Of a stretch of 50,468 bases of DNA, positions 8,373-25,764 are shown piece after piece (within the stretch, counting starts at the first letter, position 1; every line of letters begins with the position of its first letter). The stretch spans positions 1 to 50,468 of the forward strand of contig MWCD01000026.1 in NCBI GenBank assembly GCA_002069885.1. Direction: 5' to 3'. Position numbers and translations under genes: made by a program. Below the pieces are notes generated by a model. The model saw only the letters and a list, made by a program, of their open reading frames with translations. It ran no database searches and had not been told where the DNA came from. Origin of the DNA: a bacterium ADurb.Bin236 (GTDB lineage: Bacteria > UBP15 > UBA6099).

Positions 8373-8449
8373 TTCTCTGCACCTGTGTCTGTGCCGCCAA
8401 TGAGAATAGGCACGCGAGCCGGATTACATTCAGTCGGGAGCAAATACGG

Positions 8450-9606: not shown

Positions 9607-9609
9607 TGT

Positions 9610-10380
9610 TTATGCCTCCTTTTTTTCAGATTTGGATTTCGCCGCATCGGGCTTTGCCGGGGTGCTCACCGTCTGCGATGCGGTTTTCTTTTCACCGAAC
9701 GCTTCCACGTATTTGCTGTAATCAAGATCAAAAACTTCCGGCAATCGTCCCGTGCGGTCTCCCGCCTCGTAATAGAGAGACGGCTTGGTGCGGATGACGC
9801 GCCGCTGCGTGAATGTGCCGTCCGTGTTTTTCACGACATCAAGATCGCAGTAGAGGATCATGTCCACCATGCCGAGGACGATCTTCCGCGCCTTTTCCGG
9901 CAATGTCGGCATCATCTTGGTGTATTTGCCAGTGCGCGACTCGATCTCCTTTTCCTGCGCGTGCGAGATCATGAACAGCCCGTATGGCAGCAACGCCAGT
10001 TTGTTCAGCACGCGGTAAAACTCGCTGTTGATCAGTGCCCATCCTTTTCCGTAACCGAGGTCGGACTCATGCTCGATCTTGTGCTTTGTGCAGATGTACT
10101 GGGCGCAGAATCGGTAGGCGTTGTCCACCGTGTCAACGACGATTGTTTTGAAGGGATGCTTTCCTTCTGCTATTTCAGCGCACGCCTGTAGAAATTCATC
10201 CCAATTGCTGATCGGCGTCTGGTACACATTGAGCGAGTTGAGTCCGGCCTCGGTGGCCAGAAATAGCGCGTCCTCCGCGTGAGAACAGAATGAAGATTTC
10301 CCGATTTTCTGCTGCCCCCAGGCGAGGACCGTCAGGTCGCTAAGCAATGTGCGGGGCGGCGTCTTGGTTGTGGGTAACAT
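9610..10380 (-). CDS. Sak4-like RecA-fold ATPase (phage recombinase)
   Basis: A 256-residue P-loop NTPase. Walker A is WGQQKIGKSSF near residues 21-31, and Walker B is TIVVDTVDNAYRF near 85-97. The remainder follows the AAA_24/Sak4 pattern, including the sensor-like LPYGLFMISHAQE. Sak4 proteins are shortened RecA relatives that promote annealing or strand exchange together with a single-strand DNA-binding protein. The last ~30 residues form a Lys/Ala-rich tail. It lies directly before the DUF669-like gene and after the PD-(D/E)XK nuclease, the order common in phage recombination cassettes. Confidence 0.82.
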   Translation of the reverse strand: MLPTTKTPPRTLLSDLTVLAWGQQKIGKSSFCSHAEDALFLATEAGLNSLNVYQTPISNWDEFLQACAEIAEGKHPFKTIVVDTVDNAYRFCAQYICTKHKIEHESDLGYGKGWALINSEFYRVLNKLALLPYGLFMISHAQEKEIESRTGKYTKMMPTLPEKARKIVLGMVDMILYCDLDVVKNTDGTFTQRRVIRTKPSLYYEAGDRTGRLPEVFDLDYSKYVEAFGEKKTASQTVSTPAKPDAAKSKSEKKEA

Positions 10381-10409
10381 GCGTTTTTATCCTTTCTGGC
10401 CACACAGGC

Positions 10410-11456: not shown

Positions 11457-11475
11457 CTTCCAACCCTCCTTTCTT

Positions 11476-11760
11476 TCAGTCGTTGATGTAAATTTGAAGA
11501 TTGCGCTGTGTGAAAATGCGTCTGATTCTTACGATGTCGCGCAGGAACGTCGTGTGGCTTATTCCCGCCTGTTCGTAGATTTCATGCTTGGGCGCGCCCT
11601 GCGCGATGAGGCGGCATATCAGCATGAGCCGCGGAGGAAGCGCGCGAACCGCCTTGTCGACGTCGATTCGCATCTGGATGTCGTTTTCTGTGGGGAAAGG
11701 ACAGGTGCCGTAGATTCCACCGGCGTCTTCGTTTGTCAGGATTTCTGCTGTCTTGTTCAT
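11476..11760 (-). CDS. Small helix-turn-helix regulator, sigma-70 region 4-like
   Basis: A 94-residue protein from ATG 11758-11760 (MNKTAEILTNEDAGG). The C-terminal half reads like sigma region 4 or a related HTH: ALPPRLMLICRLIAQGAPKH, then a recognition-helix segment (AGISHTTFLRDIVRIRRIF). A longer frame reaching 11838 would run into the inverted-repeat block and has no ribosome site, so the shorter start is preferred. As the first gene of the minus-strand operon, it may control transcription of the whole module. It lacks region 2 and so could not replace a full sigma factor. Confidence 0.7.
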   Translation of the reverse strand: MNKTAEILTNEDAGGIYGTCPFPTENDIQMRIDVDKAVRALPPRLMLICRLIAQGAPKHEIYEQAGISHTTFLRDIVRIRRIFTQRNLQIYIND

Positions 11761-12165
11761 TGATCCGCTCGCCTCGTTTTTTTGTGCCTCTATCTGGTAA
11801 AGGCCCTTTTGGGGGTGCCCAAGGCGACAGGTTTTCAAAATAAATATTTCGGGGGTGGGAAAAGCCCGGATTCGGGGTGGTTGGGGATATTAAAGGTTCG
11901 CGCGTGTACCTTAATAAAAGAAAAAGCGCAGACCGGGACACGGCATCATCCCGACCGGCGCTCAATAATATTTTTTCAAAAGTTGTCGCCTCAGGCCATA
12001 TCAAAAGGGCCTTTACCAGATAGAAGGTGTTTTTCGGAACGCCCGGATATGATCCCGCATATCGGTAGGGACACCGGGGCCAGACATCTGAAATTAACTG
12101 AAAATTGGCTTGAGGTTAATCCGGTTCAGAGGCAACCTCACCCCTGACAAAAAAGGGGGGATTGC
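11761..12165. other. Divergent intergenic region between HTH gene and integrase
   Basis: These 405 bases separate the minus-strand operon from the plus-strand integrase. They contain the 232-bp inverted-repeat block (11791-12022), two internal hairpin candidates (around 11886-11915 and 11934-11959), and a small inverted repeat GATATG-N6-CATATC at 12046-12063 that could be an operator. A GGGGGG run lies eight bases before the integrase ATG. No reading frame is convincing. Promoters for both operons must lie here, though no consensus pair stands out. Confidence 0.6.
11791..12022. repeat. 232-bp block bounded by perfect 20-bp inverted repeats (MITE-like)
   Basis: The left arm TATCTGGTAAAGGCCCTTTT (11791-11810) is repeated exactly, inverted, at 12003-12022. 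Similarity continues imperfectly inward: GGCGACA is shared in both arms about 30 bases from the ends, followed by an A/T-rich stretch. Both ends begin with TA, so the outer TA could be a target duplication of the kind made by IS630/Tc1-mariner transposases. No transposase is encoded inside. The alternative is a symmetric regulatory region with one operator half for each divergent operon. Confidence 0.7.
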
Positions 12166-13290
12166 ATGGAACCGGAAAAGCACAAAATCGTGGCATACAA
12201 CATCGTCAAAATCGGGCATTACGCGCACGGCCATCAGTACGCCGTCCGGCTCAAGCTGGACAACGGCGAGCTGATTACGAAACGCCTGCCCGGACTGTTC
12301 CCGACAAAAAACAATTTTAATGAAGAACCGATGGAACTCCAGAACAAGGCGCATCTGGCCGTATTCAATCTTCTCCAGAGCCTCCATGACGAGGGCCCGC
12401 GCCCAAGTGGGAAATATAAGACGTGCCGAGAGGCCATGTCGGCATACGAGGAATGGCACGGGCTGAATCGGAGATGCGACAAGAGGAAATTTCATTACCT
12501 GTGCAAGAAGTTCTACGACCACTACGGCGACTCCCCAATCACAGATATCAACGATGTCACCGCGCAGGAATTCATCGAGAAGCTGATCGACCACCCATAC
12601 GGATACGACACCGTCCGGCTCGTCATCACGACGGCGTCAGGGATGATTGCGTGGCTGAAGGATGAGCGGCTCTGGCCGGGACTGAATCCGTTCAGCACGC
12701 TTTTGAAACGATACGCGAACCGATTCCTGCCGGAGGAGCCGGAGAATCCCCGATTCGAGGAGATGGAATGGGAGGTAATCATGCGGGCGGCGTCCGCGCC
12801 GGAATATAGGACTGCGAGGATTTTTATTGAAGTGGCCAGATGCACGGGGTTGAGACCGTCAGAGATTTGTCGCCTCGATATGAAACACATCGACCGCCAG
12901 AAGTGCTCATGGACGGTGTTCGTTACGAAAAAGGCGGGACGCCCGATGTACCGGAAAATCGCGGTGCCCCAGCACATAATCACTTTCCTCGACAACGAGG
13001 AGATAACAGGTGCGCTACCGTTGGTTGAAATAACGGTCGCACGACAGATACGCAAACTGAGCGCCGAGACGAGCATCAAGTTCACGGCAAAGACCTTCCG
13101 CAAGGATTTTGCCTGCCGCATGGAAGAGGCCGGAGCGGACGAGAGCATCATCAACGTCCACCAGTGGCGCGGACAGACCGGAACGCTGTACAAGAACTAC
13201 ATCAAGTTCCCGGACAGGGCGGTGAAGCTGTGCAGGCCGTATATCAATCTGATGTTCGGAGAAAAGACGCGGCTGGTGCGGGCGATATAA
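12166..13290 (+). CDS. Tyrosine recombinase / phage integrase
   Basis: A 374-residue site-specific recombinase. The first ~90 residues resemble an arm-binding region, a SAM-like core-binding domain follows (about 85-190), and the catalytic domain occupies the C-terminal half. The first catalytic Arg is in CTGLRPSEIC; the second box is AKTFRKDFACRM, where Lys replaces the usual His of HxxR; the later His/Trp box is VHQWRGQTG, and the nucleophile is the Tyr of LYKNYIKF. The His-to-Lys change is known among active family members. It probably integrates and excises the element. It points right, toward the AT-rich island, but no duplicated attachment core is visible in the window. Confidence 0.9.
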   Translation: MEPEKHKIVAYNIVKIGHYAHGHQYAVRLKLDNGELITKRLPGLFPTKNNFNEEPMELQNKAHLAVFNLLQSLHDEGPRPSGKYKTCREAMSAYEEWHGLNRRCDKRKFHYLCKKFYDHYGDSPITDINDVTAQEFIEKLIDHPYGYDTVRLVITTASGMIAWLKDERLWPGLNPFSTLLKRYANRFLPEEPENPRFEEMEWEVIMRAASAPEYRTARIFIEVARCTGLRPSEICRLDMKHIDRQKCSWTVFVTKKAGRPMYRKIAVPQHIITFLDNEEITGALPLVEITVARQIRKLSAETSIKFTAKTFRKDFACRMEEAGADESIINVHQWRGQTGTLYKNYIKFPDRAVKLCRPYINLMFGEKTRLVRAI

Positions 13291-13299
13291 ACCTAATCC

Positions 13300-13530
13300 C
13301 TACAACCGATTGCTGGATTGCTTATCCTTGAGTTGTTGGTCGTTTGCAACATAATTCTTCTCCCATGTATCAGGATATTCTTTTATAGCACCACACTTCG
13401 TACATTTAAAAAATGTTGTGGATACTGTCTCTTCGCGATCTTTACCACGGCTGTTAGTGGTTCTGATTTTAACATTCCAACTACCCTTTTTAGCGGTAGC
13501 CACATATTTGTGCGTACATTGTTTTTTCAT
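13300..13530 (-). CDS. Small possible zinc-ribbon protein (76 aa)
   Basis: It encodes 76 residues starting MKKQCTHKYVATAKKGSW. A CTKC pair at about 43-46 and Cys5/His7 near the start could make a four-ligand zinc ribbon. The protein is basic and ends in a Gln/Lys/Ser-rich tail. No family is recognised. AAGGAAA lies about 12 bases before the ATG. The stop is only 10 bases from the integrase stop (convergent), so it may belong to either the element or the island; its lower G+C is like the island. Confidence 0.5.
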   Translation of the reverse strand: MKKQCTHKYVATAKKGSWNVKIRTTNSRGKDREETVSTTFFKCTKCGAIKEYPDTWEKNYVANDQQLKDKQSSNRL

Positions 13531-13560
13531 TCATATTGTTTCCTTTGACGATGTTCCAAT

Positions 13561-14112
13561 TCATATATGCTTGTCGTCATTCAAATTATTATGTATTTTT
13601 CCAATCTCAAGCAAAGAATCAACACCTAACGTACCTGCACCCATGTATTGAACAAGACTTTCGAGCGCCTCAGTTATTCGTTTTTGTTCACTCTCCGACA
13701 TTTTGCCCAGCGCCGTATTCAGCGGGCGTTTCAAGGGATAAGGCATTTTTTCAGCGAGTTCCCTGCCTTTTTCAGTAGGTACGATATGTATAAATCTACG
13801 ATCATTTTTATCGCGATGACGTTGAAGAAGTTCTTTACTCTCAAGTCGATCCACTATACCGATGATTGTGCTTGCGTCCAATGATATCCGGTTTGCTATT
13901 TCTGTTGCCGTAATGGATTCTTTTTCAACAACAGCAAGAAGACAGGCAAGTTGAGGCCCCGTTATGCCATACTCGGCAGCAAGCAATCTTGAATGAATGT
14001 CAACGGCACGTATTATTCGCCTGAGAGCAAAGAGGATTCTTCTGCCAAAATCACTTTCAACCTGATAGCTTTCCGAGGCGCTCTTAATATTTGCGATGCT
14101 TTGCTTTTTCAT
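13561..14112 (-). CDS. MarR-family transcriptional regulator
   Basis: A winged-helix regulator of 183 residues from ATG 14110-14112; GGGAG lies about 12 bases upstream. The winged helix reads ITGPQLACLLAVVEKESITA, then the recognition helix LDASTIIGIVDRLESKEL and the wing RDKNDRRFIHIVPTEKG. MarR proteins bind palindromes as dimers and usually release DNA on binding a small molecule. It is divergent from the island operon, and an inverted repeat overlaps the island promoter, so it is the likely local regulator. A TTGAAA / TATAGA pair with a 19-base gap on the minus strand may be its own promoter. Confidence 0.88.
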   Translation of the reverse strand: MKKQSIANIKSASESYQVESDFGRRILFALRRIIRAVDIHSRLLAAEYGITGPQLACLLAVVEKESITATEIANRISLDASTIIGIVDRLESKELLQRHRDKNDRRFIHIVPTEKGRELAEKMPYPLKRPLNTALGKMSESEQKRITEALESLVQYMGAGTLGVDSLLEIGKIHNNLNDDKHI

Positions 14113-14203
14113 TGTTTTTATTTCTCCCAACCTAAAATTCAAATTCTATAGGTTCAGCTTACACTTTTTTTTCAATGCGAATCATACATTCCGCGATTCA
14201 ACA

Positions 14204-14245
14204 TTGACGACTGCCACTCCAATGATTATAATTACTACTATTGGA
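14204..14245 (+). promoter_or_regulatory. Near-consensus sigma-70 promoter with overlapping inverted repeat
   Basis: TTGACG (14204-14209) and TATAAT (14227-14232) are separated by exactly 17 bases. An inverted repeat TCCAAT (14218-14223) and ATTGGA (14240-14245) brackets the -10 box and predicted start, where a bound repressor would block RNA polymerase. The predicted start near 14239 leaves a leader of about 96 bases before the receiver-like gene. The divergent MarR gene makes MarR the probable ligand of the repeat. Confidence 0.7.
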
Positions 14246-14334
14246 ATAGCAATAGGTTGTGAAGGATTGCTTGCCCAAAAAGTCATAAATGAAGACTTTT
14301 AAGTTCGAATACCTTCACGAAAAAAGAGAGCTAC

Positions 14335-14751
14335 ATGAATATGGACTCAGACAATATATTGGTCCTTCAGAATAAATGTGAGACAAGCGATTCAATTTGC
14401 ATTGAGCTTGAAAATGCCGGTTTTACTGTTATTTCGGCGACCGATATGGGGAAGGCATTACAACAGGTTGTTGATGTTAAACCTGATGTTGTAATCTTAC
14501 ACGTGGATCACCCCAAAACAGGAGGGATTGAAATCTGTAGGGCTATTGTCCAAGACAATAGTGTACATAGCCATGTCATAGTTATATCCAGCAAAAACGA
14601 CCTCCAAACAATGCTTTCATACTTTATTGCTGGGGCTAATAGATTTCTTTCAAAGCCTTTCCATGTTAATGACTTACTTTGCGAGATCAATAATGCTATA
14701 CGTAAAAAGAAGATGTCATCAGTTCAAATGTATAACGCCGCGCACGATTGA
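14335..14751 (+). CDS. Degenerate response-regulator receiver protein
   Basis: A 138-residue protein with the receiver fold (CheY-like) and no output domain. The phosphorylation site is broken: the position of the acceptor Asp is His56 (VVILHVDHP), and the acidic pair expected after the first strand is Gln12-Asn13 (LVLQNK). The conserved Lys of the last loop remains (LSKPF, Lys107). It cannot be phosphorylated in the usual way and probably acts as a constitutive or ligand-sensing adaptor. It is the first gene after the island promoter, 27 bases before the PRC-barrel gene. An AAAGAGAG element lies upstream of the start. Confidence 0.82.
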   Translation: MNMDSDNILVLQNKCETSDSICIELENAGFTVISATDMGKALQQVVDVKPDVVILHVDHPKTGGIEICRAIVQDNSVHSHVIVISSKNDLQTMLSYFIAGANRFLSKPFHVNDLLCEINNAIRKKKMSSVQMYNAAHD

Positions 14752-14778
14752 GAATTATATAGGAAAAAGAGGTGAACC

Positions 14779-15420
14779 ATGCTTATCAGCCTGAAAAGCA
14801 TTCTGAATTATACCATTAACGCAACCGATGGAATGATTGGTCGAATAAGAGATATCTATTTCTACGACGACTCTTGGTTTGTGAAGTTTTTTGTGGTGGA
14901 AATCGGGACTATTTTCCGAAGCCACAAAGTGTTGATACCACCGGCGCAGTCTGATCGAGTGGATCACATGGAAAAAACTGTTAATGTTGAACTGAACAAG
15001 GACGACATTAGACAATCTCCAAAAGCAATTTTGCATAAACCTGTTTCAGTTGCATTGAAGGAACAATTTACCGCTTACAATAAAAAACTCCACCTCAGGG
15101 GTTACCATGGCGCAACCGTGGATAATATTGTCTCATTTCCTTCATTCCAGACCGATCCGAATCTTCGAAGCGTTCGGGAAGTTATCGGATATCATGTTCA
15201 ATCATTTAGCGGCCCTGCCGGGCGTCTTTTGGATTTGTCTGCTTACGAAGAAGGTTGGAATATTAGGTATCTTGTGATTGGTATAAATAGATTTTTTCAT
15301 AACAGAAAAGTGATGATTGCTCCCCAGATGGCACAACGCATTATATGGGAAGGAAAAAGGATAGAGATCGAAGCGGGAAGTGATGAAATTTACAACAGCC
15401 CTGAACGTGACAATAATTGA
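14779..15420 (+). CDS. Double PRC-barrel domain protein
   Basis: It encodes 213 residues with two PRC-barrel units. The first is residues 1-90 (LISLKSILNYTINATDGMIG, then YFYDDSWFVKFFVVE), the second about 110-200 (EVIGYHVQSFSGPAGRLLDL, then WNIRYLVIGI). PRC barrels occur in photosynthetic reaction centre H subunits, RimM and many stress proteins of unknown role. There is no signal peptide or membrane segment. It lies between the receiver-like gene and citrate synthase, with an AAAAGAGGTG ribosome site. Confidence 0.85.
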   Translation: MLISLKSILNYTINATDGMIGRIRDIYFYDDSWFVKFFVVEIGTIFRSHKVLIPPAQSDRVDHMEKTVNVELNKDDIRQSPKAILHKPVSVALKEQFTAYNKKLHLRGYHGATVDNIVSFPSFQTDPNLRSVREVIGYHVQSFSGPAGRLLDLSAYEEGWNIRYLVIGINRFFHNRKVMIAPQMAQRIIWEGKRIEIEAGSDEIYNSPERDNN

Positions 15421-15478
15421 TAACTACATGGAAACGAATCGCAAATTCAAAATATCGCGCTGTTAAAGGAGATAATTT

Positions 15479-16894
15479 ATGAGCGATAGAACAGATAAAA
15501 TATCAATTCTTATACGAGACGCAGCTAAGAAAGCAATGGAGGACAATGACTCATCAATAGACCAAGTGAAAACAACCACGGTCGAATGGCCTGTAAGTTG
15601 TACTGTCGGGCCCGGACTTGAGGGAGCAATAGCCTGTGAGACAAAAATTGGTTACGTGAACGGCTCGAAAGGTCAGTTGATATATCGTGGATATGATATT
15701 TTCGACCTTTGTGAAAATTCTTCATTCGAGGAGGTCACATACCTGCTTCTTTATGGAAGAATGCCGTCCGAGAAGCAAACAATCAAATTCAAGAATAAGC
15801 TGTTCAAGTACATGTATATTCCTGAAACTACACGACTTCTGACTAGTTTCCAAATTGAAGAAATGGACACGATGGCTTCACTACGGTTTGGCATCAGTTT
15901 GCTTAGACTCACAAACATACGCAAGAAAAAAACTGACGGATTTCCAGAAACATCAGTTCTGATAGGAACTGACGAAGATTCAATCCCCATGGAAACGCCA
16001 CCGATAGGAGAAGAGCATGCCATTTATGAATTTGATGAGATGTCGACGGATTCTGGAAAAAATGACGCTGTGCGGCATAAGTCGGAACGCGCAGAAACAT
16101 GCTGCAGACTGATATCCGGTGTCGCTTCTCTGACAGCGGCAATAGCGAGAATAAGAAGTGGGCATCTACCCCTTGAACCGATCCCTGAACTGAGTCATGC
16201 GGGAAACTTGATTTACATGATGACTGGAAAAAAGCCGACTCCTGACGAAGAGCGCGTCATGGATGTTTGTCTGATACTCCATGCGGATCATGGTATGAAC
16301 GCGAGCACTTTCGCCGCACTAGTTGTGGCCTCAACGCTTGCAGACATATATTTTTCTGTCGGGTCTGGAATAGGTGCGCTAAGCGGGCAGTTGCACGGAG
16401 GCGCCAATCAAAAGGCATACGCAATGTTGAAGGAAATCGGCGGACCAGACAATGTCAAATCCTGGTATAAAAAAGCTTGTTCGGAAAAGAGAAAAATCAT
16501 GGGTGTCGGACACAGGGTTTATAAAACACATGATCCGAGAGCGCTTATACTTGACCCGCTTGCTGGTTATTTGGCGAAAAAAGATAAGAAAATTAACGTA
16601 TTGTACGAAACATCAAAGATTCTTGAAAAACATGTATGTTGCACGCTCGGAGCCGAAAAGGGACATTTTCCTAACGTGGACTATTATTCAGGTCTTGTCT
16701 ACAAATCTCTTGGAATTCCCAATGATCTTTTTACTCCCATATTCGCGGTCAGCAGAGTTTCAGGCTGGACAGCGAGAGTAATGGAATATCTTGAAAATAA
16801 CCGCATATTCCGGCCGCGTGCAATTTATACAGGCCCCTTTTGCAAAAGAATAATAAAAACAAGGGGATTTAATGGAGGCGTGAATGAAAAGTGA
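15479..16894 (+). CDS. Citrate synthase with an unusual internal insertion
   Basis: A 471-residue citrate/2-methylcitrate synthase; most bacterial single-subunit relatives have about 370-430 residues. It condenses acetyl-CoA with oxaloacetate. Catalytic residues are present: His306 (QLHGGAN), His345 (GVGHRVY) and Asp401 (NVDYYSG), with LHADHGMNAST at 268-277. Residues ~150-205 form a charged, Asp/Glu/Lys-rich insertion not seen in ordinary enzymes, and the first ~40 residues are an extra hydrophilic tail. Its location among ion transporters, not with other TCA genes, is odd. It could supply 2-oxoglutarate for glutamate. The stop overlaps the MscS start by 11 bases. Confidence 0.9.
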   Translation: MSDRTDKISILIRDAAKKAMEDNDSSIDQVKTTTVEWPVSCTVGPGLEGAIACETKIGYVNGSKGQLIYRGYDIFDLCENSSFEEVTYLLLYGRMPSEKQTIKFKNKLFKYMYIPETTRLLTSFQIEEMDTMASLRFGISLLRLTNIRKKKTDGFPETSVLIGTDEDSIPMETPPIGEEHAIYEFDEMSTDSGKNDAVRHKSERAETCCRLISGVASLTAAIARIRSGHLPLEPIPELSHAGNLIYMMTGKKPTPDEERVMDVCLILHADHGMNASTFAALVVASTLADIYFSVGSGIGALSGQLHGGANQKAYAMLKEIGGPDNVKSWYKKACSEKRKIMGVGHRVYKTHDPRALILDPLAGYLAKKDKKINVLYETSKILEKHVCCTLGAEKGHFPNVDYYSGLVYKSLGIPNDLFTPIFAVSRVSGWTARVMEYLENNRIFRPRAIYTGPFCKRIIKTRGFNGGVNEK

Positions 16895-17933
16895 GTTAAC
16901 CCGGGTGCTTTTGCCTTTTGCAATTACCGCAGCTGTTTCAATAGCACTTTTCGCAATCAGAAAAATCGCGTTAAGACAAATGGGGAAATATGTAAAGAAA
17001 ACTGAAGGCCAACTTGACGACCTTGTTCTGAAGGCTCTCAGCGTGCCATCCATTTACTGGTGCCTTGCAATAGGCATATACATAGGCGTTACATTTTCAG
17101 AACTGCCAGACAAACATGTCCATTACATTGGAAAAGCAATAAACGTTCTCATTCTTCTTTCCGTCACATTTGCAGCAGCAAATCTCGCTGGAATTATGAT
17201 TAACAGTTTCATGCACAAGATTAGTCTTAATGTTCCAGCAACAGGAATTGCTTTTGGTGTTATTAAAGGAACGATTATTGTAATAGGCATTTTGGTCATT
17301 CTCAACACAATTGGAATTTCTGTAACACCACTTATCACCGCTCTTGGTGTCGGCGGTCTCGCAGTTGCTCTGGCTTTAAAGGACACTCTGGCAAATCTTT
17401 TCTCCGGGATACAAATACTCATGGAGAAATCAATACGGATAGGCGATTTCATAAGGCTTGAATCCGGGCAGGAGGGTTATGTGGAGGATATTACCTGGAG
17501 AACGGCCAGGATAAGAATGCTTCCCAATAACATGGCGATAATTCCCAACAGCATACTATCACAAAGCGTGATCACTAATTACAACCTACCGGAAAAAAGA
17601 ATGTCCTTGCCAATCCCTATAAGCGTAAGCTATTCCTCTGACCCCGAAAAAGTGGAAAGAGTTCTTATCGAAGAGACAAGAAAAGCAATCGGCGTGATTC
17701 CCGGTTTGCTTGGAGTCCCCGAACCATTGGTAAGGTTCATGCCCGGATTTGGTGATAGCAGCCTCGACTTTACTCTTATCTGTCAAATTGAGCAATATTC
17801 TGACCAATACATTGCACAGCATGAATTGAGAAAGAGAATACTTCGAAGATTTCAAGAAGAGAATATCGAGATACCCTTTCCTCACAGGGTTGTTATTATG
17901 GACCGGGAAAGGGTGGCGAATGAAAAAGCATAA
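16884..17933 (+). CDS. Small-conductance mechanosensitive channel (MscS family)
   Basis: It encodes 349 residues. Four or so hydrophobic segments occupy the first 170 residues, followed by the pore helix and beta domain: ALGVGGLAVALALKDTLANL, then SGIQILMEKSIRIGDFIRL and GYVEDITWRTARIRM. The C-terminal alpha/beta part ends with FPHRVVIMD. MscS channels open under membrane tension and release solutes on hypo-osmotic shock. GGAGG lies five bases before the ATG, which overlaps the citrate synthase gene, indicating coupled translation. In this island it would be the release valve for accumulated solutes. Confidence 0.92.
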   Translation: MKSELTRVLLPFAITAAVSIALFAIRKIALRQMGKYVKKTEGQLDDLVLKALSVPSIYWCLAIGIYIGVTFSELPDKHVHYIGKAINVLILLSVTFAAANLAGIMINSFMHKISLNVPATGIAFGVIKGTIIVIGILVILNTIGISVTPLITALGVGGLAVALALKDTLANLFSGIQILMEKSIRIGDFIRLESGQEGYVEDITWRTARIRMLPNNMAIIPNSILSQSVITNYNLPEKRMSLPIPISVSYSSDPEKVERVLIEETRKAIGVIPGLLGVPEPLVRFMPGFGDSSLDFTLICQIEQYSDQYIAQHELRKRILRRFQEENIEIPFPHRVVIMDRERVANEKA

Positions 17934-19335
17934 TATTGCTTTTCATAACAAGAGGCACATTGTAGGACGACCGAGCATCATTTTTACATTATTTGGTATG
18001 TCCCTGCTGTTATTTGTTCTGACAACCCCTTCCATTTGTTGGGCGGCAGGAACGACACCACATAAAGGCGTAGCGCCTCCACTGTGGTCTGTCATCCCGT
18101 TCATTGGTATTCTATTGTCTATTGCTATCATTCCTCTTGTTTCTCACGATTGGTGGCACAAGCACTTCCCTAAGATCGCGTTGATCTGGGCATGTCCTGT
18201 TGCAGTGTGGGCATTGTTTTATAAAACAGAATGGCTATTCCACACTTCGATTGAATATGCAGCATTTATTTCTCTTATTGGCTCTCTCTTCGTTATCTGC
18301 GGTGGGATATACATAAAAGGCAATCTCCGGGGTTCTCCTCTTGTAAACACCGCAATTCTGGCTATTGGCTGCGTGCTTGCAAACTTTATTGGCACGACCG
18401 GAGCATCAATGATTCTGGTTCGACCGCTAATCCGAGCAAATTCAAACCGGAAGCACCGCGTTCACATGCTTGTGTTTTTGGTATTTCTTGTAAGCAACAT
18501 AGGTGGTTCTCTTACACCTCTCGCTGATCCGCCTCTTTATCTCGGCCTCTTGAAGGGGGTGCCTTTCTACTGGACGTTAAAATTACTCCCTGAATGGTTG
18601 TTTGCCTGTGGAATACTGCTTGCAGTATTTTTTGTTATTGATTTATATTACTATCATCGAAAAGAAGAAATTGTCCGCGAAACAACTCCTGTTCGTATAG
18701 TAATTGATGGAAAAAGAAATGTTTTCTTCCTTGCCGGAATACTTGGGGCGGTCCTGCTTTATTCACAATTACCAGTAGCCATGGGTTTTTGTCGTGAAAT
18801 CATTCAGATCGCGATTATGGGCATTATGGCGTTCCTGTCTTATAGATACACCCCTAATATCGTTCATATAGAAAATGAATTTAACTGGTTGCCAATACGC
18901 GAGGTGACAATTCTATTCGCCGGAATATTTGCATGCATGATTCCTGTGCTTAAGGTACTTGAAATGCGCGGTGGGGAACTTGGTGTCGTTGAGCCATGGC
19001 AATTTTTCTGGGCGACAGGACTCTTGTCCGGATTCCTTGATAATGCTCCAACATACCTTTCTTTCCTTTCACTGGGAATACCAGTCAGTCACAACGCGAC
19101 TGATGTTGTTCGACTTTTCAATGGCACAATCGAGGCGTCCATCTTAAAAGCCATCTCAATTGGCGCGGTATACATGGGTGCATTGACCTACATCGGCAAC
19201 GGCCCAAATTTTATGGTTAAATCCATTGCAGCGCATCAAGGTGTAAAAATGCCGAGCTTTTTCGGATACATGGCCTGGTCTTTTGCGATTCTTATTCCGC
19301 TATTTTTTCTTATGACATTTATTTTTATCAAATGA
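17920..19335 (+). CDS. Sodium:proton antiporter, NhaD/ArsB-like
   Basis: An integral membrane protein of the ion-transporter superfamily (about 11-12 hydrophobic segments, 471 residues). The start ATG 17920 follows GGGAAAGGGTGG; an upstream ATG at 17890 would only extend it into MscS. Typical features are the segment NFIGTTGASMILVRPLI, then FLVSNIGGSLTPLADPP, and near the C-terminus SGFLDNAPTY with ALTYIGNGPNFMVKS, as in NhaD/citrate-type antiporters. It probably exchanges Na+ for H+, though an organic anion substrate cannot be excluded from sequence. The N-terminus contains a signal-like hydrophobic segment ending in CWAAG. Confidence 0.85.
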   Translation: MKKHNIAFHNKRHIVGRPSIIFTLFGMSLLLFVLTTPSICWAAGTTPHKGVAPPLWSVIPFIGILLSIAIIPLVSHDWWHKHFPKIALIWACPVAVWALFYKTEWLFHTSIEYAAFISLIGSLFVICGGIYIKGNLRGSPLVNTAILAIGCVLANFIGTTGASMILVRPLIRANSNRKHRVHMLVFLVFLVSNIGGSLTPLADPPLYLGLLKGVPFYWTLKLLPEWLFACGILLAVFFVIDLYYYHRKEEIVRETTPVRIVIDGKRNVFFLAGILGAVLLYSQLPVAMGFCREIIQIAIMGIMAFLSYRYTPNIVHIENEFNWLPIREVTILFAGIFACMIPVLKVLEMRGGELGVVEPWQFFWATGLLSGFLDNAPTYLSFLSLGIPVSHNATDVVRLFNGTIEASILKAISIGAVYMGALTYIGNGPNFMVKSIAAHQGVKMPSFFGYMAWSFAILIPLFFLMTFIFIK

Positions 19336-19352
19336 GGAAGGCTTTCTAAAGA

Positions 19353-20720
19353 ATGGGAACACGGCAAGTTGGTCAAAGAGTCGCTGAGGAGACAGTATTA
19401 TTTGTAAGCGTTCTGAAATGGGTGGTGCTTGGTAGCACTGTAGGTGTTATCGTTGGATTCTCAACAACGATATTTCTTAAAGCATTAAACTGGGGCATAT
19501 CCCTGACGGGACGGTTTTCTTACTATTACCTTCTCTTGCCGATAGGATTTCTCTTAAGTTCCTTGTTGGTTAAATACCTTGCTCCTGATGCAAAAGGACA
19601 CGGCACCGAAAAAGTCATTGAGGCGATTCACAAACATCAGGGTAAAATAAAAACATCTGTTGTGCCGATTAAGTTACTTGCAACTGTCGTCACGATTGCC
19701 GTGGGTGGCTCAGCGGGAAAGGAAGGGCCATGCGCTCAAATCGGCGCTGGTCTTGCCGCCATGCTGTCGCGGTTGTTGCGGTTTGACGCTACGGATCGCA
19801 AGAAACTGGTTATTTGCGGTATCAGCGCGGGGTTCGCTTCTGTTTTCGGAACACCCATATCCGGGGCGATATTTGGGGTGGAAGTTCTTTTTGTTGGAAA
19901 CCTTCTCTATGATTCGCTCTTACCTTCGTTTATTGCAGGAATTACAGCTTATCAGGTTTCAAGCCTTCTTGGTGTGAACTATTTTCACCATCCTTTGAAT
20001 TTCATCCCCGTTTTCAGTAGCGCTTTTTTTATCAAAGTGCTCATCGCCGGAGTTTATTTCGGCTTTTGCGCTATTCTCTTTATAGAGATTATGAGATTGG
20101 GAGAGAAACTGTCTGGCAGGTTGAAATTAGGAGCTCCACTAAGAGGAATCATTGGCGGATGCGTGCTTGTGGTTTTAGTTCTCGTTTTTTCAAAAAGATA
20201 CCTCGGGCTGGGGTTGGACACGATTCAGGGTGGTCTTCAGGGGAGGGATATAATCTGGTATGCGTTTATAATAAAGATCATTTTTACCAGCATAACTCTC
20301 AACTTCGAAGGTAGCGGCGGGATCGTTACGCCGATTTTTTTCGTGGGTGTAACTTCCGGATGCCTGTTCGCAAAATTATTCGGACTCGATACCGCAACGT
20401 TCGCGGCGATTGGCATGGTAGGTCTCCTTGCAGGCGCGGCTAACACTCCCATTGCCGCAAGCATCATGGCGGTGGAGTTGTTCGGGGCAAAAGTCGCCCC
20501 ATATGCAACCGTAGCATGCATAATAAGTTTTCTGATAACCGGCCATAGAAGTGTCTATCCATCACAAATACTTGGTATCATAAAATCTTCATCGATCAAC
20601 GTCGAAATCGGAAGTGAAATGGACGATTTGGAAGTCCGGTATCAACCGAGAGATAAAAGTATCGTCGGTAAGCTTTCTTATTTATATGACCGAATTACAT
20701 CTTGGCTGGCGAAGAAATAG
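19353..20720 (+). CDS. ClC-family chloride channel/antiporter
   Basis: A 455-residue ClC protein. The anion-filter segments are GHGTE (82-86), where most have GSGIP, and GKEGP at 122-126, so the gating glutamate (Glu124) that couples Cl- to H+ is kept. GTPISGAIFGVE and the late motif FEGSGGIVTPIFFVG are typical. Retention of the glutamate suggests a 2Cl-/H+ exchanger, as used in acid resistance. The C-terminal ~40 residues are soluble and lack CBS domains. It sits 17 bases after the NhaD-like gene, in the same operon. Confidence 0.9.
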   Translation: MGTRQVGQRVAEETVLFVSVLKWVVLGSTVGVIVGFSTTIFLKALNWGISLTGRFSYYYLLLPIGFLLSSLLVKYLAPDAKGHGTEKVIEAIHKHQGKIKTSVVPIKLLATVVTIAVGGSAGKEGPCAQIGAGLAAMLSRLLRFDATDRKKLVICGISAGFASVFGTPISGAIFGVEVLFVGNLLYDSLLPSFIAGITAYQVSSLLGVNYFHHPLNFIPVFSSAFFIKVLIAGVYFGFCAILFIEIMRLGEKLSGRLKLGAPLRGIIGGCVLVVLVLVFSKRYLGLGLDTIQGGLQGRDIIWYAFIIKIIFTSITLNFEGSGGIVTPIFFVGVTSGCLFAKLFGLDTATFAAIGMVGLLAGAANTPIAASIMAVELFGAKVAPYATVACIISFLITGHRSVYPSQILGIIKSSSINVEIGSEMDDLEVRYQPRDKSIVGKLSYLYDRITSWLAKK

Positions 20721-20754
20721 GTCGTATAAATGAAGCATCAATACTGGAGAACAT

Positions 20755-22551
20755 ATGAAAATACGTAGAGTTGATACAGAACGATACACAAAGGAAGCGC
20801 TGAAAAAAGAAGCTGCTCCCTTTATGAGGGTTCTCGCTAAGTGCAAAGATTTAAAATCAGCTCGAAGGCGTTTATACAATACCATATCATCCGCTCAGTA
20901 CGAACTGGCCGATAGCGACAATCACGAGCATGTATACAGTGTCATAAGAGACTGTGCGCGCGCATTGAGATCGATGATTCCAGAACGTTCTGAAGATCGC
21001 GCCGGATATAGTGTGCTGCAGGCAATTTGGGACATTGCGTGCGCCCGTCCACGTCCCGATTTGTCTCCGGCATTTTTTGCGGACGTAATTCATCTTTTTA
21101 ATGGACTTCAGGGTAAAGTGGAACTCGGATGGCATCCGTGGAATGGAAAAGCAGAAAACCTCGAAGGCCGGGAAGCCGCTATTGCCCGCTCTGACTATCT
21201 GGACTCATTATGGGCTGAAATAGAATCCCTTATGAGACACAGCACCGATGGAATGACGGAGGCGGCCCAGGTATGCCACAGACAACGAAAGACAGAAATA
21301 CAAGCTATTCTTGGATGCTCCGAGGCCGAATGGGATGATTGGAAGTGGCAGATTAGAAATATTGTCCGTGACCCTGAAACTCTACGTCGCATCGTTAACC
21401 TTACTCCAGATGAACTTGAACGCTGTAGCCGAACACATGCGGCTCGGCTGCCGTTCGGGATTACTCCCTATTACGCCTCTCTTATGGACGCTGACCCGGA
21501 ATCCGGCAAGGACCGCGCAATACGCGCTCAGGTAATCCCGCCTTCAGATTACCTTGACGAAATGATTGCCCACCACCACGAGCGAGAGCGGGCTTTTGAT
21601 TTCATGCTTGAGCGCGATACATCTCCTATAAACCTTGTAACGAGACGATATCCAGCGATAGCAATTCTTAAGCCTTTCAATACTTGCCCCCAGATATGCG
21701 TATATTGCCAACGCAACTGGGAAATCGAGGCGGCAATGTCGCCAGACGCGCTCGCGCCGTGGGATGAGATAGAAAATGCCTGTCGATGGATCGAATCACA
21801 CCCCGCGATAAGAGAAGTGCTTATTACAGGCGGCGATCCTCTCGCGCTTGAAGACACACAATTGAAAAATATTCTTGAGCGCGTGGCAAACATCCGCAGC
21901 GTCGATTTGATACGCGTCGGAACACGCACGCCAGCCACCATGCCTATGAGAATCACAGATGAATTGGCGGACTTGCTTGGGTCCCTCCGCAGCCCTGGAA
22001 AACGTGAGGTGTGCATTGTAACTCACGTTGAGCATCCTTATGAAGTTACGCCAAATCTTGTAAGCGCAGTGGATCGATTGCGCCGACAAGGGATTGGAGT
22101 CTACAACCAACTGGTTTACACTTTTTATGTCTCACGACGATTCGAAGCGGCGCATTTACGACTGCTTCTTCGGCGAGCGGGTATCGATCCTTATTACACG
22201 TTCGTGCCAAAAGGGAAGGAAGAAACGCGCTCATACAGAGTTCCCATTGCCCGCATACTGCAAGAGCAAAAAGAAGAGGCACGACTGCTGCCGGGGACTC
22301 GACGTACTGACGAGACCGTATACAATCTGCCCGGACTGGGAAAGAATTATTTGCGAGCTATCCAACACAGGGATCTGATTTCCATACTTCCCGATGGCTC
22401 TCGTGTATATGTGTATCATCCATGGGAAAAGAATATCACCCGGTGTAATGCATATATCAGCGCTGATGTTCCGATTCTCGAATATCTTGACAGGCTATTA
22501 AAGATTGGAGAGGACAAGGAAGACTATGAGAGTATTTGGTATTATTTTTGA
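20755..22551 (+). CDS. KamA-family radical SAM 2,3-aminomutase, probably acting on glutamate
   Basis: It encodes 598 residues, about 180 more than lysine 2,3-aminomutase, mostly as an N-terminal alpha-helical extension. The radical SAM cluster motif is Cys311, Cys315, Cys318 (CPQICVYC). The PLP lysine is Lys530 in LPGLGKN. In lysine 2,3-aminomutase, Asp293 (in YVCD) and Asp330 (seven before the PLP Lys) hold the lysine side chain; here these positions are Lys486 (FVPK) and Asn524. Glutamate 2,3-aminomutase of Clostridium has Lys and Asn at the same places. I infer conversion of L-glutamate to beta-glutamate, an osmolyte. Family assignment is firm; the substrate is inferred. Confidence 0.85.
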   Translation: MKIRRVDTERYTKEALKKEAAPFMRVLAKCKDLKSARRRLYNTISSAQYELADSDNHEHVYSVIRDCARALRSMIPERSEDRAGYSVLQAIWDIACARPRPDLSPAFFADVIHLFNGLQGKVELGWHPWNGKAENLEGREAAIARSDYLDSLWAEIESLMRHSTDGMTEAAQVCHRQRKTEIQAILGCSEAEWDDWKWQIRNIVRDPETLRRIVNLTPDELERCSRTHAARLPFGITPYYASLMDADPESGKDRAIRAQVIPPSDYLDEMIAHHHERERAFDFMLERDTSPINLVTRRYPAIAILKPFNTCPQICVYCQRNWEIEAAMSPDALAPWDEIENACRWIESHPAIREVLITGGDPLALEDTQLKNILERVANIRSVDLIRVGTRTPATMPMRITDELADLLGSLRSPGKREVCIVTHVEHPYEVTPNLVSAVDRLRRQGIGVYNQLVYTFYVSRRFEAAHLRLLLRRAGIDPYYTFVPKGKEETRSYRVPIARILQEQKEEARLLPGTRRTDETVYNLPGLGKNYLRAIQHRDLISILPDGSRVYVYHPWEKNITRCNAYISADVPILEYLDRLLKIGEDKEDYESIWYYF

Positions 22552-22614
22552 TTTCTTGGATTTCGCTGTTTGAGATTTTGAATAAAAAACGTTTAACGCG
22601 ATATATCTCCAGTC

Positions 22615-22630
22615 TTGATATTATTATCAA
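22615..22630. promoter_or_regulatory. Inverted repeat upstream of the Kef-type gene
   Basis: TTGATA (22615-22620) and TATCAA (22625-22630) form a perfect palindrome around TTAT. It lies in the 130-base gap before the Kef-type gene, the largest gap in the island operon, and could be an operator or part of a separate promoter for that gene. It is not the same sequence as the repeat at 14218-14245, so a different regulator may be involved. Confidence 0.35.
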
Positions 22631-22681
22631 AGGATTTTCATGATAGTTGAATTCGCAACGTCAAATTGAGACAATATTTAT

Positions 22682-24580
22682 ATGGAGCATAACATCTCTT
22701 TCCTTCCTTTGCTGATTGTTACCCTACTGGCGCTCATCGTTCCATTTCTCATTTACAGAATCAGGGTGATTCGTATTCCCGTCGTTGTTGGCGAGATAAT
22801 CTGTGGCATATTGGTGGGGAAAAGCGGCTTAAAGCTTATAACAAGCGATCCGACACTCGGATTTTTGTCGCTGCTCGGGTTCACATACTTGATGTTCCTT
22901 GGCGGGATGGAAATTGATTTCCATTCGTTGAGAACGAACAGAATTACTACAGATAAAACAAGATTCTCGGTCCTAAAGAATCCTGTGTTGGTTTCTTTTA
23001 TTGTTTTAGTCCTTACCCTTATCCTCGGTTATATTTCTGTCCATCTGCTGGTCTTGCACGGCATCCTTCCAGATAAGACAAACAAAGTGATGCTCGCACT
23101 GCTTATAAGCACAACTTCAGTCGGAGTTGTGCTTCCGGCTATTAAAGAGGCGGGAATAATCGAAGATAAATATGGACAGACACTGTTGTTGAGTGCTGTT
23201 TTTATTGATTTTGCCACAATCGTTCTAGCGACAATTTCACTTGTACTTTTAAGAGGAAATAAAGGCGGTTCTCTTAAACTTGCGGAGCTTATCGGGTTGG
23301 GATTGGTGTTTTACCTTGTTTTCGTTTCAATAAAACGCCTCTCTTCAAAACCATTCATAAAGAAGATTTATGAAGACCTAAGCAATACATCATCACAACT
23401 CAGAGTTAGAACAGCATTTGCCCTTATGGTTTTGTTTGCATTTCTCAGTCAGTCGGTTGGTGTTGAGTTGATACTCGGTGCATTTGTAGCCGGTATGCTC
23501 TTTAGCCTTTTCTTTAAGAGCACCTCGGCGGAAAGCGCTGCGAAATTCGACGCAATAGGATTCGGTTTTCTGATACCAGTATTTTTTATAATGGTTGGAG
23601 CAAAATTAGACTTGGGTGAGGTGATTAGAAACCCAGGGCTGATATGGACAGCTTTCATTTTATTGGGAGTCGCTTTCCTAATAAAAATAATCCCGCTGTT
23701 GCCATTTTCATTTCTTTTTGGAGTTCGTAACGCTACCGCCGGAGGCATTCTTCTCGCCGGACAGCTTAGCCTCACAATAGCTTTTGCGGAAGTTGCTGTC
23801 GCCGAGAAACTGCTGGCTCCCTCAATGAGAGTTTCCGCCATCATTATTGCCATAGGCACTTGTCTAATCGCGCCTCTTCTTTTTGGCAAGATTCACAAAA
23901 AAAGGAACTCCCTTTCAAAAAAAGGAATAATAATTCTCGGTGCTGGTAAAATGGGGCGCCTGCTCGCAAAACGATTTCAAGAACGACAACACAATGTCTG
24001 TCTAATGGATACGGATATTAATGCGGTTGAAAAAGCAAAAAGCGATGATCTTGCCGTATTTCATTATGAGAAACTTGAAAAAAGTGCTTTCATAAAGGCT
24101 GGTGTGGAGCGTTCAAACGTTTTTGTTGCAGTGACGAATGACGACAAAATCAACCTTAATGCCTGTATATTTGTCCGTGACTCGTTTGGTATTGTTGAAC
24201 TTGCGGCAAGAGTTGGAAATCCAGCTAATACACATTTGTTCATAGAACAAAAAATACGCCCTATGAATACAACACTCGCCTCTGCGGTTGCGCTTGAGAA
24301 TATTATTTATCGCCCCAATGTTTTCAGCGTGTTGTCACATGAAGAGACTGGCACGGAAGTTATAGAGGTAAATGTCAGAAACCCTTTAGTTGCTGGAAAA
24401 CGCTTAATGGATATCACAATACCGGGCAACGGACTCATACTGATTATTGAGCGAAACGGTGTTTCCAGCATCCCTCACGGCAAAACCATATTGGAACAAA
24501 ATGATACCGTGACAATTTTTCTTAATAGTGAGACAATTCTCGAAATCGCACGTTTGTTTGATCCCGAATCGAATCTTTGA
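22682..24580 (+). CDS. Kef-type K+/H+ (cation:proton) antiporter with TrkA domains
   Basis: A 632-residue CPA2-family protein. The first ~390 residues hold about 12 membrane helices (for example VVGEIICGILVGKSGLKL and LILGAFVAGML). A TrkA-N/RCK nucleotide-binding domain follows from ~415, opening with IIILGAGKMGRLLAKRF, and a TrkA-C domain ends the chain (~545-625, TEVIEVNVRNPLVAGKRL). RCK domains sense NAD(H), glutathione adducts or ions and gate K+ efflux. There is no ancillary KefF/G gene nearby. It closes the island, 115 bases before tRNA-Ala, which reads on the other strand. Confidence 0.9.
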   Translation: MEHNISFLPLLIVTLLALIVPFLIYRIRVIRIPVVVGEIICGILVGKSGLKLITSDPTLGFLSLLGFTYLMFLGGMEIDFHSLRTNRITTDKTRFSVLKNPVLVSFIVLVLTLILGYISVHLLVLHGILPDKTNKVMLALLISTTSVGVVLPAIKEAGIIEDKYGQTLLLSAVFIDFATIVLATISLVLLRGNKGGSLKLAELIGLGLVFYLVFVSIKRLSSKPFIKKIYEDLSNTSSQLRVRTAFALMVLFAFLSQSVGVELILGAFVAGMLFSLFFKSTSAESAAKFDAIGFGFLIPVFFIMVGAKLDLGEVIRNPGLIWTAFILLGVAFLIKIIPLLPFSFLFGVRNATAGGILLAGQLSLTIAFAEVAVAEKLLAPSMRVSAIIIAIGTCLIAPLLFGKIHKKRNSLSKKGIIILGAGKMGRLLAKRFQERQHNVCLMDTDINAVEKAKSDDLAVFHYEKLEKSAFIKAGVERSNVFVAVTNDDKINLNACIFVRDSFGIVELAARVGNPANTHLFIEQKIRPMNTTLASAVALENIIYRPNVFSVLSHEETGTEVIEVNVRNPLVAGKRLMDITIPGNGLILIIERNGVSSIPHGKTILEQNDTVTIFLNSETILEIARLFDPESNL

Positions 24581-24695
24581 TGCATAAAAATAAACAGATG
24601 TGAAATTGCCAAATGTTACAGCTATGTTACGGGGTTATTCCGGGTTTGCGAAATAGAAGATTCTAAAAAACCTTGTGTTTATGCGGCTATTTTAG

Positions 24696-24768
24696 TGGAG
24701 CTAGGGGGATTCGAACCCCCGACCTTCTGACTGCCAGTCAGACGCGCTCCCAACTGCGCTATAGCCCC
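24696..24768 (-). tRNA. tRNA-Ala (GGC)
   Basis: A 73-nucleotide cloverleaf with acceptor GGGGCTA / TAGCTCC, which includes the G3-U70 wobble pair that identifies alanine tRNAs. The anticodon loop is CTGGCAG and the T-loop TTCGAAT. CCA is not encoded. It is the last gene of the tRNA/rpsU operon; its 3' end faces the AT-rich island. Confidence 0.95.
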
Positions 24769-24939
24769 GTGTGTTGTGTTGCCGGACGGCCGCATGTGTG
24801 GCGTGTGCGCGGTGTGGTGTCCGGTGGCGTTTCTGTATGGTTCGGGCCGGTGGTCTAGGGGGTGGTTTGGGATGATGGTCCGGCCGTCGCGTTGTTTGTT
24901 CGGTTGTGCCCGGTTTGCGTGTCGCGCGGACCGGGGTTT

Positions 24940-25012
24940 TGCCGAGAGACGGATTTGAACCGCCGACGCAGGGATTTTCAGTCCCTCGCTCTACCGACTG
25001 AGCTATCTCGGC
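24940..25012 (-). tRNA. tRNA-Phe (GAA)
   Basis: A 73-nucleotide cloverleaf with acceptor GCCGAGA / TCTCGGC, discriminator A, and anticodon loop CTGAAAA (GAA). CCA is not encoded. A 171-base spacer rich in C and A on the transcribed strand separates it from tRNA-Ala; nothing else is visible there. Confidence 0.95.
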
Positions 25013-25133
25013 TCCTGCTTTGTGTTGACGTTGCGCCTGACGCTGGCTGCGGCTGCGTGGTCTCCTGCTGGGAGGCCTTTGAGGGTCTCCGCGTGTGGCA
25101 GGGGAGCGGGCCGGGCCTTGCGGGGGCGGGGCG

Positions 25134-25319
25134 TCAGAATTTCTTTTTTCTGCTTTTGCGCACGCGTTCTTTGATTTTGCGGCGGCGCTTGTCGCTTGGT
25201 TTTTCGTAAACCTGCGAGCGTTTGTAGTCTTCCTGAATTCTGGCGTCGCGGCAAACGCTTCTGAAGCGTCTGAGAGCGCTTTCTATCGATTCGCCTTCAT
25301 GAACTTTTACTCCCGGCAA
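25134..25319 (-). CDS. rpsU: 30S ribosomal protein S21
   Basis: A 61-residue basic protein with the S21 pattern: VKVHEGESIESALRRFRSVC, then RRHARI-type helix and a Lys/Arg-rich end (RRKIKERVRKSRKKKF). It binds the 30S subunit near the anti-Shine-Dalgarno region of 16S rRNA and helps initiation. The start is TTG (25317-25319), with GAGAGGGTG about 12 bases upstream. It is embedded between tRNA-Asp and tRNA-Phe and shares their transcript, so tRNA processing must release its mRNA. Confidence 0.95.
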   Translation of the reverse strand: MPGVKVHEGESIESALRRFRSVCRDARIQEDYKRSQVYEKPSDKRRRKIKERVRKSRKKKF

Positions 25320-25357
25320 CTTTTACACACCCTCTCTAAATTTCAGTTTTTCACCTA

Positions 25358-25430
25358 CGGAGCCGACGAGGATTGAACTCGCGATCTCCGGCTTGACAGG
25401 CCGGCATGTTAACCGCTACACCACGGCTCC
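25358..25430 (-). tRNA. tRNA-Asp (GTC)
   Basis: Acceptor GGAGCCG / CGGCTCC with discriminator G, as required for aspartate. Anticodon loop CTGTCAA (GTC). It lies 39 bases before the S21 start codon in the same operon, so its 3' processing sets the 5' end of the rpsU message. Confidence 0.95.
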
Positions 25431-25446
25431 TTGCTACGGGCTTGCT

Positions 25447-25518
25447 TGGGCGGAGTGGGTTTCGAACCCACGGCCTCTTGCGTGTGAAGCAAGCGCTCTC
25501 CCGCTGAGCTACCCGCCC
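25447..25518 (-). tRNA. tRNA-Val (CAC)
   Basis: A 72-nucleotide cloverleaf with acceptor GGGCGGG / TCCGCCC, discriminator A and anticodon loop TTCACAC (CAC), reading GTG codons. CCA is not encoded. It is 16 bases before tRNA-Asp. Confidence 0.93.
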
Positions 25519-25527
25519 TTGTTTTGT

Positions 25528-25599
25528 TGCCCCCAAGGGGACTCGAACCCCTGCCGCCGCCTTGAAAGAGCGGTGTCCTAACCACTAGACGATGAGGGC
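25528..25599 (-). tRNA. tRNA-Glu (TTC)
   Basis: A 72-nucleotide cloverleaf with acceptor GCCCTCA / TGGGGGC, discriminator A and anticodon loop CTTTCAA (TTC). It is nine bases before tRNA-Val. Confidence 0.95.
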
Positions 25600-25607
25600 G
25601 GCTTTGA

Positions 25608-25680
25608 TGAGCCGTCCGGGGTTCGAACCCGGGACACCCGGATTAAAAGTCCGGTACTCTACCACCTGAGTTAACGGCCC
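25608..25680 (-). tRNA. tRNA-Lys (TTT)
   Basis: A 73-nucleotide cloverleaf with acceptor GGGCCGT / ACGGCTC, discriminator A and anticodon loop CTTTTAA (TTT). It is the first gene of the operon, about 78 bases after the predicted transcription start. Confidence 0.95.
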
Positions 25681-25764
25681 GATGCGTTCCTTACAGGCCT
25701 GTTCCGGCCTTCCGGATTGTTTCTCCGGGTTGGGTAAGCCCTTTTCAAAGTTCACAAACTCTAA

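Follow-up and report, generated by a model that had tools for sequence, protein, structure and literature searches.

A possible osmotic and ion-stress island with a predicted glutamate-type aminomutase in bacterium ADurb.Bin236

Background

Osmolyte operons that encode an aminomutase (ablA/ablB) are already known, as is a link between eam and Na+ biology (PMC1224877, PMC9337991). Expression of ablA/ablB depends on salt (PMC1224877), and both ablA and eam, the latter a gene for beta-glutamate, have been linked to riboswitches for Na+ and to Na+/H+ antiporters (PMC9337991). Beta-glutamate itself, an anionic compatible solute whose pool is nearly static, has been described as an osmolyte chiefly from methanogens; few bacteria have been reported to contain it (PMC1224877). 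Here we describe eight consecutive genes of bacterium ADurb.Bin236 (UBP15; assembly GCA_002069885.1), one of which encodes a long-form KamA aminomutase. They lie on contig MWCD01000026.1, whose entire length of 50,468 bases is the window that we analyzed. The draft genome consists of 169 contigs and is 93% complete.

MscS channels open upon hypo-osmotic shock, ClC proteins transport Cl-, and CPA2 and NhaD-type carriers swap Na+ or K+ for H+. Genes of all these kinds accompany KamA in the window. We consider it somewhat probable that the genes form a horizontally acquired, modular island against osmotic and ion stress, which combines a transport module with a solute-making module and in which KamA most likely makes beta-glutamate. 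In such an island, MscS would dump solutes on down-shock, and ClC and the two cation:proton antiporters would set Cl-, Na+, K+ and pH. KamA would convert L-glutamate to beta-glutamate at the place where sister islands hold trehalose synthesis, and the product would serve as a poorly metabolized, anionic osmolyte and counter-ion of K+. We infer that glutamate is the substrate of KamA, that its product accumulates and that citrate synthase, PRC, NhaD and the receiver have the roles assigned to them here.

An AT-rich run of eight genes

A sequence-only reading of the contig had proposed a single, AT-rich operon of eight named gene types for osmotic and ion homeostasis, built around beta-glutamate. 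All eight are present on the + strand, in unbroken order from 14335 to 24580: receiver, PRC, citrate synthase, MscS, NhaD/CitMHS_2, ClC, KamA and Kef-type (Table 1). The distances between the first seven genes range from -11 to +58 base pairs, and these genes therefore look like a single transcription unit. The Kef gene follows after 130 base pairs and may have its own promoter. The promoter-like site ahead of the operon begins exactly at 14204, which that reading had given as the left limit of the region.

Two of its other assignments also hold. The receiver is degenerate in that its phospho-acceptor aspartate is replaced by histidine (PDVVILHVDHPKTGG; read from the sequence). The PRC protein scores just below the Pfam threshold, yet its AlphaFold model (predicted local distance difference test, pLDDT, 82) contains two tandem barrels, and its PDB matches are PRC-barrel proteins. 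Overlooked at that stage were the divergent MarR gene and the adjoining integrase and phage genes. The MarR protein is likely a local regulator of the island, and a MarR gene also occurs in a KamA/ClC/antiporter locus discussed below (L046). Together with MarR, the receiver and PRC proteins presumably regulate the operon.

The block differs from its surroundings in the GC content of third codon positions (GC3). All nine genes from MarR through Kef have values of 0.35-0.45, compared with 0.54-0.78 in the other sampled window genes, which bears out the AT-rich character. A small open reading frame at 13300-13530 is an exception among the flanking genes (GC3 0.38), and may be part of the island. 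Given the low GC3 relative to the flanks, the block would have been imported as one unit, and it appears to have been acquired horizontally. The block has two marks of a genomic island, a distinct composition and a neighboring mobile element, here the adjoining integrase. We assigned the integrase to the flank and not to the island because of its own GC3.

The left flank (513-13290) is prophage-like, and encodes a DnaG-type primase, a RecD2-like helicase, an MT-A70 methyltransferase, AAA_24, a PD-(D/E)XK nuclease and the integrase. The right neighbor of the island is a cluster of six tRNAs. We considered whether the island had inserted into the tRNA-Ala gene on its right side, and rejected this since the window contains no attachment (att) repeat: neither the tRNA-side edge (24560-25760) nor the left edge (13200-14340) shares an exact 15-mer with other parts of the window, whose left end lies within the prophage-like flank. 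Carriage by a phage or plasmid was also rejected. Neither KamA nor the citrate synthase matched any IMG/VR contig, plasmids held only distant KamA relatives and phage records only ordinary citrate synthases.

The abrupt change of composition at both edges, in a draft of so many contigs, could also arise if an AT-rich block from another organism of the sample had been misassembled into this contig. This is hardly likely, as the block lies within the contig and is bordered to its left and right by DNA of host-like GC. Moreover, among the 290 genomes searched, the nearest relatives of the citrate synthase (in G006) and of the Kef protein (in G005) are both from the same order.

Table 1 Features of the island and its left edge
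Feature	Position	Strand	Details
Tyrosine recombinase, phage integrase family	12166..13290	+	Left edge of island; Pfam PF00589 3e-11; GC3 0.73; beside prophage-like genes
MarR-family regulator	13561..14142	-	Divergent from operon; Pfam PF01047 3e-13; GC3 0.35
Promoter-like site TTGACG-17-TATAAT	14204..14232	+	Ahead of operon; sigma70-like, 11/12 matches, best in region; consensus match only
Stand-alone degenerate receiver domain	14335..14751	+	Pfam PF00072 1e-16
Tandem PRC-barrel protein	14779..15420	+	Pfam PF05239 sub-threshold, 20.7 bits vs cut-off 21.2
Si-type citrate synthase, internal insertion	15479..16894	+	Pfam PF00285 5e-118; motifs HGGANQ, GVGHRVY, VDYYSG retained
MscS-family mechanosensitive channel	16884..17933	+	Pfam PF00924, PF21082, PF21088
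NhaD/CitMHS_2-type ion transporter	17917..19335	+	Pfam PF16980 1e-155
ClC-family chloride channel/antiporter	19353..20720	+	Pfam PF00654 1e-74; gating-Glu motif GGSAGKEGP
Long-form KamA radical-SAM/PLP aminomutase, 598 amino acids	20755..22551	+	TIGR00238 316 bits, cut-off 199; CxxxCxxC at 311-318, Lys486, Asn524, putative PLP (pyridoxal phosphate) Lys530
CPA2 monovalent cation:proton antiporter, Kef-like, TrkA_N + TrkA_C	22682..24580	+	Pfam PF00999 3e-54, PF02254, PF02080

A long-form KamA with glutamate-type residues

The aminomutase belongs to the KamA family (TIGR00238): its score exceeds the cut-off, and Cys311, Cys315, Cys318 and Lys530 are invariant in 45 aligned relatives. By its position, Lys530 is the putative PLP-binding residue. 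An AlphaFold model of the protein (pLDDT 91) has its best structural match in the lysine 2,3-aminomutase of PDB entry 2a5h (template modeling score, TM-score, 0.75 over the target), which is also the only PDB sequence match, at 28% identity. The two proteins have the CxxxCxxC motif and the putative PLP lysine in common, but both lysine-binding aspartates are substituted in the window KamA.

Specifically, the window protein has Lys486 and Asn524 at the positions where lysine-type enzymes have a pair of aspartates. The first position corresponds to Asp293 of 2a5h, and the second to what we take to be Asp330. The Lys/Asn pair is retained in nearly all long-form relatives (the lysine in all but one scored member), whereas the lysine-type sequences that we fetched have Asp/Asp. 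Such a replacement is expected of glutamate 2,3-aminomutases, and it fits a substrate with a side-chain carboxylate. On the strength of these residues, the window KamA is most likely of the glutamate 2,3-aminomutase type and would convert L-glutamate to beta-glutamate, in agreement with the acid-type enzyme and the solute that had been proposed from the sequence.

The family of roughly 600 amino acids to which this protein belongs spans many bacterial phyla and some archaea. We tentatively suggest that it could be another type of glutamate 2,3-aminomutase, so far undescribed, making beta-glutamate as a compatible solute and exchangeable for trehalose synthesis in mobile osmoadaptation islands.

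A second long KamA is encoded in the same genome (G000:C18:13527-15230; L069 8932-10734). It is 51% identical to the window protein, and a gene for an aldehyde ferredoxin oxidoreductase comes immediately after it; close relatives of this second copy are present in two further genomes (G001 and G003). In a quick tree, the window KamA and its own-lineage paralogue fall into separate clades (Shimodaira-Hasegawa-like approximate likelihood ratio test, SH-aLRT, 99-100), which is consistent with a foreign origin of the window copy. We also observed a different KamA-like protein of 733 amino acids (L018 1093-3291) that likewise has Lys/Asn at the specificity positions, and a Polyangiaceae KamA relative (L068) that seems to be frameshifted or fragmented.

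Relatives of four island genes adjoin trehalose modules

TreT and OtsBA synthesize trehalose. In other bacteria, relatives of the window's MscS, ClC, KamA and Kef each adjoin a trehalose module (DUF5752-TreT-OtsBA), and these independent linkages support the osmotic and ion theme of the sequence-only reading. In the complete genome G266 (locus L113), homologs of the window's MscS (64-67% identical) and ClC (63%) are in one operon with the trehalose genes. The order is GpgS-like - SH3 - M23 - MscS - DUF5752 - TreT - OtsBA - ClC - second GpgS-like glycosyltransferase - MscS-like transmembrane protein - CPA2 - KefC, and the GpgS-like genes probably make glucosylglycerate.

A search of genome contigs yielded 43 long KamA loci, from Myxococcota, Acidobacteriota, Zixibacteria, Planctomycetota, Omnitrophota, Sumerlaeota, Altarchaeota and other lineages. 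We used TreT, OtsBA and DUF5752 from L113 as probes on the loci found with each window gene. Matches occurred in 4 of 14 MscS loci in addition to L113 (L139, L141, L143 and L145), 1 of 9 ClC loci (L115, OtsBA), 1 of 4 Kef loci (L127, OtsBA) and 4 of the 43 KamA loci (L023, L026, L044 and L046). None were found in 60 regions taken arbitrarily from the genomes with these KamA loci, nor in the six NhaD loci, the seven PRC loci or the three loci of the own-lineage KamA paralogue. Compared with the control regions, Fisher's test gives p = 0.0009 for MscS and p = 0.03 for KamA; the counts for ClC and Kef are too few.

Several individual loci are instructive. One MscS locus reads MscS-ClC-OtsBA, and MscS and ClC occur together in both L113 and L141. 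In Myxococcota, long KamA genes adjoin ClC or antiporter genes as well as TreT-OtsBA. Locus L044 has the order KamA-ClC-DUF5752-TreT-OtsBA. In L046, KamA-CPA2 is on one strand and MarR-TrkA/Usp-CPA2-ClC on the other, followed by DUF5752-TreT-OtsBA. A long KamA lies beside DUF5752-TreT in L026 and beside MscS in L072, and in an Altarchaeum locus (L059) a Na+/H+ exchanger is immediately 5′ of KamA. The window unit joins a solute-synthesis gene, here only predicted as such, to channel and antiporter genes, as expected of an osmoadaptation operon, and L044, L046, L113, L139 and L141 are analogous to it in this sense.

TreT is present in 8 of the 43 KamA genomes and lies within the fetched KamA flank in 3 of these 8 (expected: 0.044). 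The corresponding figures for OtsBA are 14 of 43 genomes and 4 of 14 flanks (expected: 0.058). A possible OtsBA linkage in L063 was dropped, being a 27% tblastn match below a stricter threshold. With a wider panel that includes channels and antiporters, we counted 28.6 matches per megabase near KamA and 1.4 per megabase in the 60 arbitrary regions. The TreT and OtsBA figures are cleaner, because the wider panel partly drew its queries from KamA loci themselves.

Two further observations concern these neighborhoods. In Zixibacteria (L035 5666-10001, CP070839.1), TrkA and a GNAT acetyltransferase are encoded 5′ of a long KamA, an arrangement that recalls ablA/ablB and could make N-acetyl-beta-glutamate. 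DUF5752 (PF19027) adjoins TreT in examined osmotic loci (L113 4795-5460, L044 13675-14214, L026 9548-10174 and L046 18365-18991). We found no mention of DUF5752 in the literature that we searched; it is a candidate partner in trehalose metabolism, and thereby gains a likely link to this process.

Recurrence of the set and alternative explanations

A number of observations weigh against an osmotic island that makes beta-glutamate. The full eight-gene set is absent around the 43 long KamA loci and from the fetched loci of PRC, ClC, NhaD, Kef and MscS relatives, and for PRC, NhaD, receiver and citrate synthase we saw no linkage that recurs in the loci examined. About 35 of the 43 long KamA loci have no nearby osmotic or ion gene. 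Linkage was seen in few lineages (Myxococcota and Acidobacteriota), and the probe families were picked after L113 had been seen. Given the few lineages and the many loci without linkage, we regard the KamA association as real but partial. KamA itself reaches only 225-226 bits with the glutamate 2,3-aminomutase equivalog TIGR04368, far below the cut-off of 650. The Lys/Asn pair is presumably the signature of the characterized Clostridioides difficile glutamate 2,3-aminomutase (Lys332 and Asn369), but the literature that we searched did not give these residues. Neither the window nor 23 related loci gave an Rfam match to a Na+ or c-di-AMP (cyclic diadenosine monophosphate) riboswitch. Finally, early evidence from nuclear magnetic resonance spoke against the idea that methanogens make beta-glutamate with a glutamate aminomutase (PMC1224877).

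Since the exact set recurs nowhere among the loci examined, each of which groups three of the eight gene families at most, we rejected a conserved, named eight-gene system. What recurs is the modules: the outcome that was to refute the sequence-only reading, a lack of recurrence, holds for the set but not for its modules. Of the 290 genomes, just 6 others have PRC relatives, none with the set; PRC and NhaD relatives show no linkage of the kind seen for the four genes above, and the one close citrate synthase relative is beside TerC. No gene family was found to recur beside KamA across phyla.

It is improbable, in our view, that the genes are simply the accumulated cargo of separate donors and have no joint function. 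The exact set does not recur, several of its genes are unlinked to each other elsewhere, and the island borders an integrase and prophage-like genes, all as expected of such cargo. However, the uniform GC3 of nine genes, the overlapping or close spacing and the one leading promoter-like site point to a single unit, and MscS and ClC are found together in L113 and L141.

More weight belongs to another explanation, although we still regard it as unlikely. ClC, NhaD, Kef and MscS could be an ion or pH cassette against alkaline, acid or metal stress, and KamA could make a beta-amino acid that serves another purpose (a conjugate, a cell-surface component or a natural-product building block) or act on another acidic amino acid. 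Five of the eight genes transport ions or control this transport. The majority of long KamA genes lack osmotic neighbors and have others, such as the aldehyde ferredoxin oxidoreductase gene beside the paralogue or an aminotransferase gene in L025, and the low TIGR04368 score also fits. By contrast, a pure pH cassette predicts no compatible-solute genes beside KamA, MscS, ClC and Kef relatives, yet these are what we found elsewhere, and the Lys/Asn pair suits a side-chain carboxylate.

Citrate synthase and the NhaD-type transporter

No second Si-type citrate synthase was matched in this genome, which is 93% complete; Re-type enzymes were not searched for. The island enzyme may therefore well feed 2-oxoglutarate and hence glutamate. 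Its nearest relative (G006:C100:304-2745; L152) is 59% identical, belongs to the same order, has the same internal insertion and adjoins a gene for the membrane protein TerC. For the transporter, the open reading frame was called from a TTG at 17890, but a start at 17917-17920 is more likely.

The two genes might instead form a citrate module, in which citrate synthase and CitMHS_2 export or take up citrate and the other genes balance charge. PF16980 is labeled ‘Putative citrate transport’ in Pfam, and only MscS stands between the two genes. Nevertheless, we give this possibility very little weight. A citrate synthase of the window type is found in none of the fetched NhaD-type loci (L121-L125 and L130), the homolog in G006 adjoins TerC and not a CitMHS gene, and the NhaD/CitMHS group includes Na+/H+ antiporters.

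Significance and comparison with known systems

A stress island with a solute-making KamA remains the explanation that we prefer. The widespread long KamA family, with its glutamate-type residues and its linkage to trehalose and ion-channel genes, is a candidate, open to direct test, for the enzyme by which bacteria make beta-glutamate. Judging from the loci of G266 and Myxococcota, such islands may freely mix modules for solutes with modules for transport.

The trehalose operon of G266 resembles the window in that it has MscS, ClC, CPA2/Kef antiporters and solute synthesis in one operon. It differs in encoding trehalose and probable glucosylglycerate synthases in place of KamA, and it lacks citrate synthase, PRC and the receiver. 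The ablA/ablB system of methanogens, which makes N-epsilon-acetyl-beta-lysine, also uses a 2,3-aminomutase of the KamA superfamily for a beta-amino acid solute, although in the window the product is a prediction. The window KamA has Lys/Asn where AblA has Asp/Asp, is about 600 amino acids long and has no acetyltransferase gene accompanying it in the window. With the eam glutamate 2,3-aminomutase, which is genetically tied to Na+ biology, it has in common the predicted reaction and, presumably, the Lys/Asn pair. By contrast, the window protein scores 226 of the 650 bits needed for TIGR04368 and carries an extra N-terminal helical domain, and no riboswitch was found in the window. What is new in relation to these systems is the long KamA branch with its Lys/Asn pair, the linkage of this branch to trehalose and ion-channel genes, and the combination of genes in the window.

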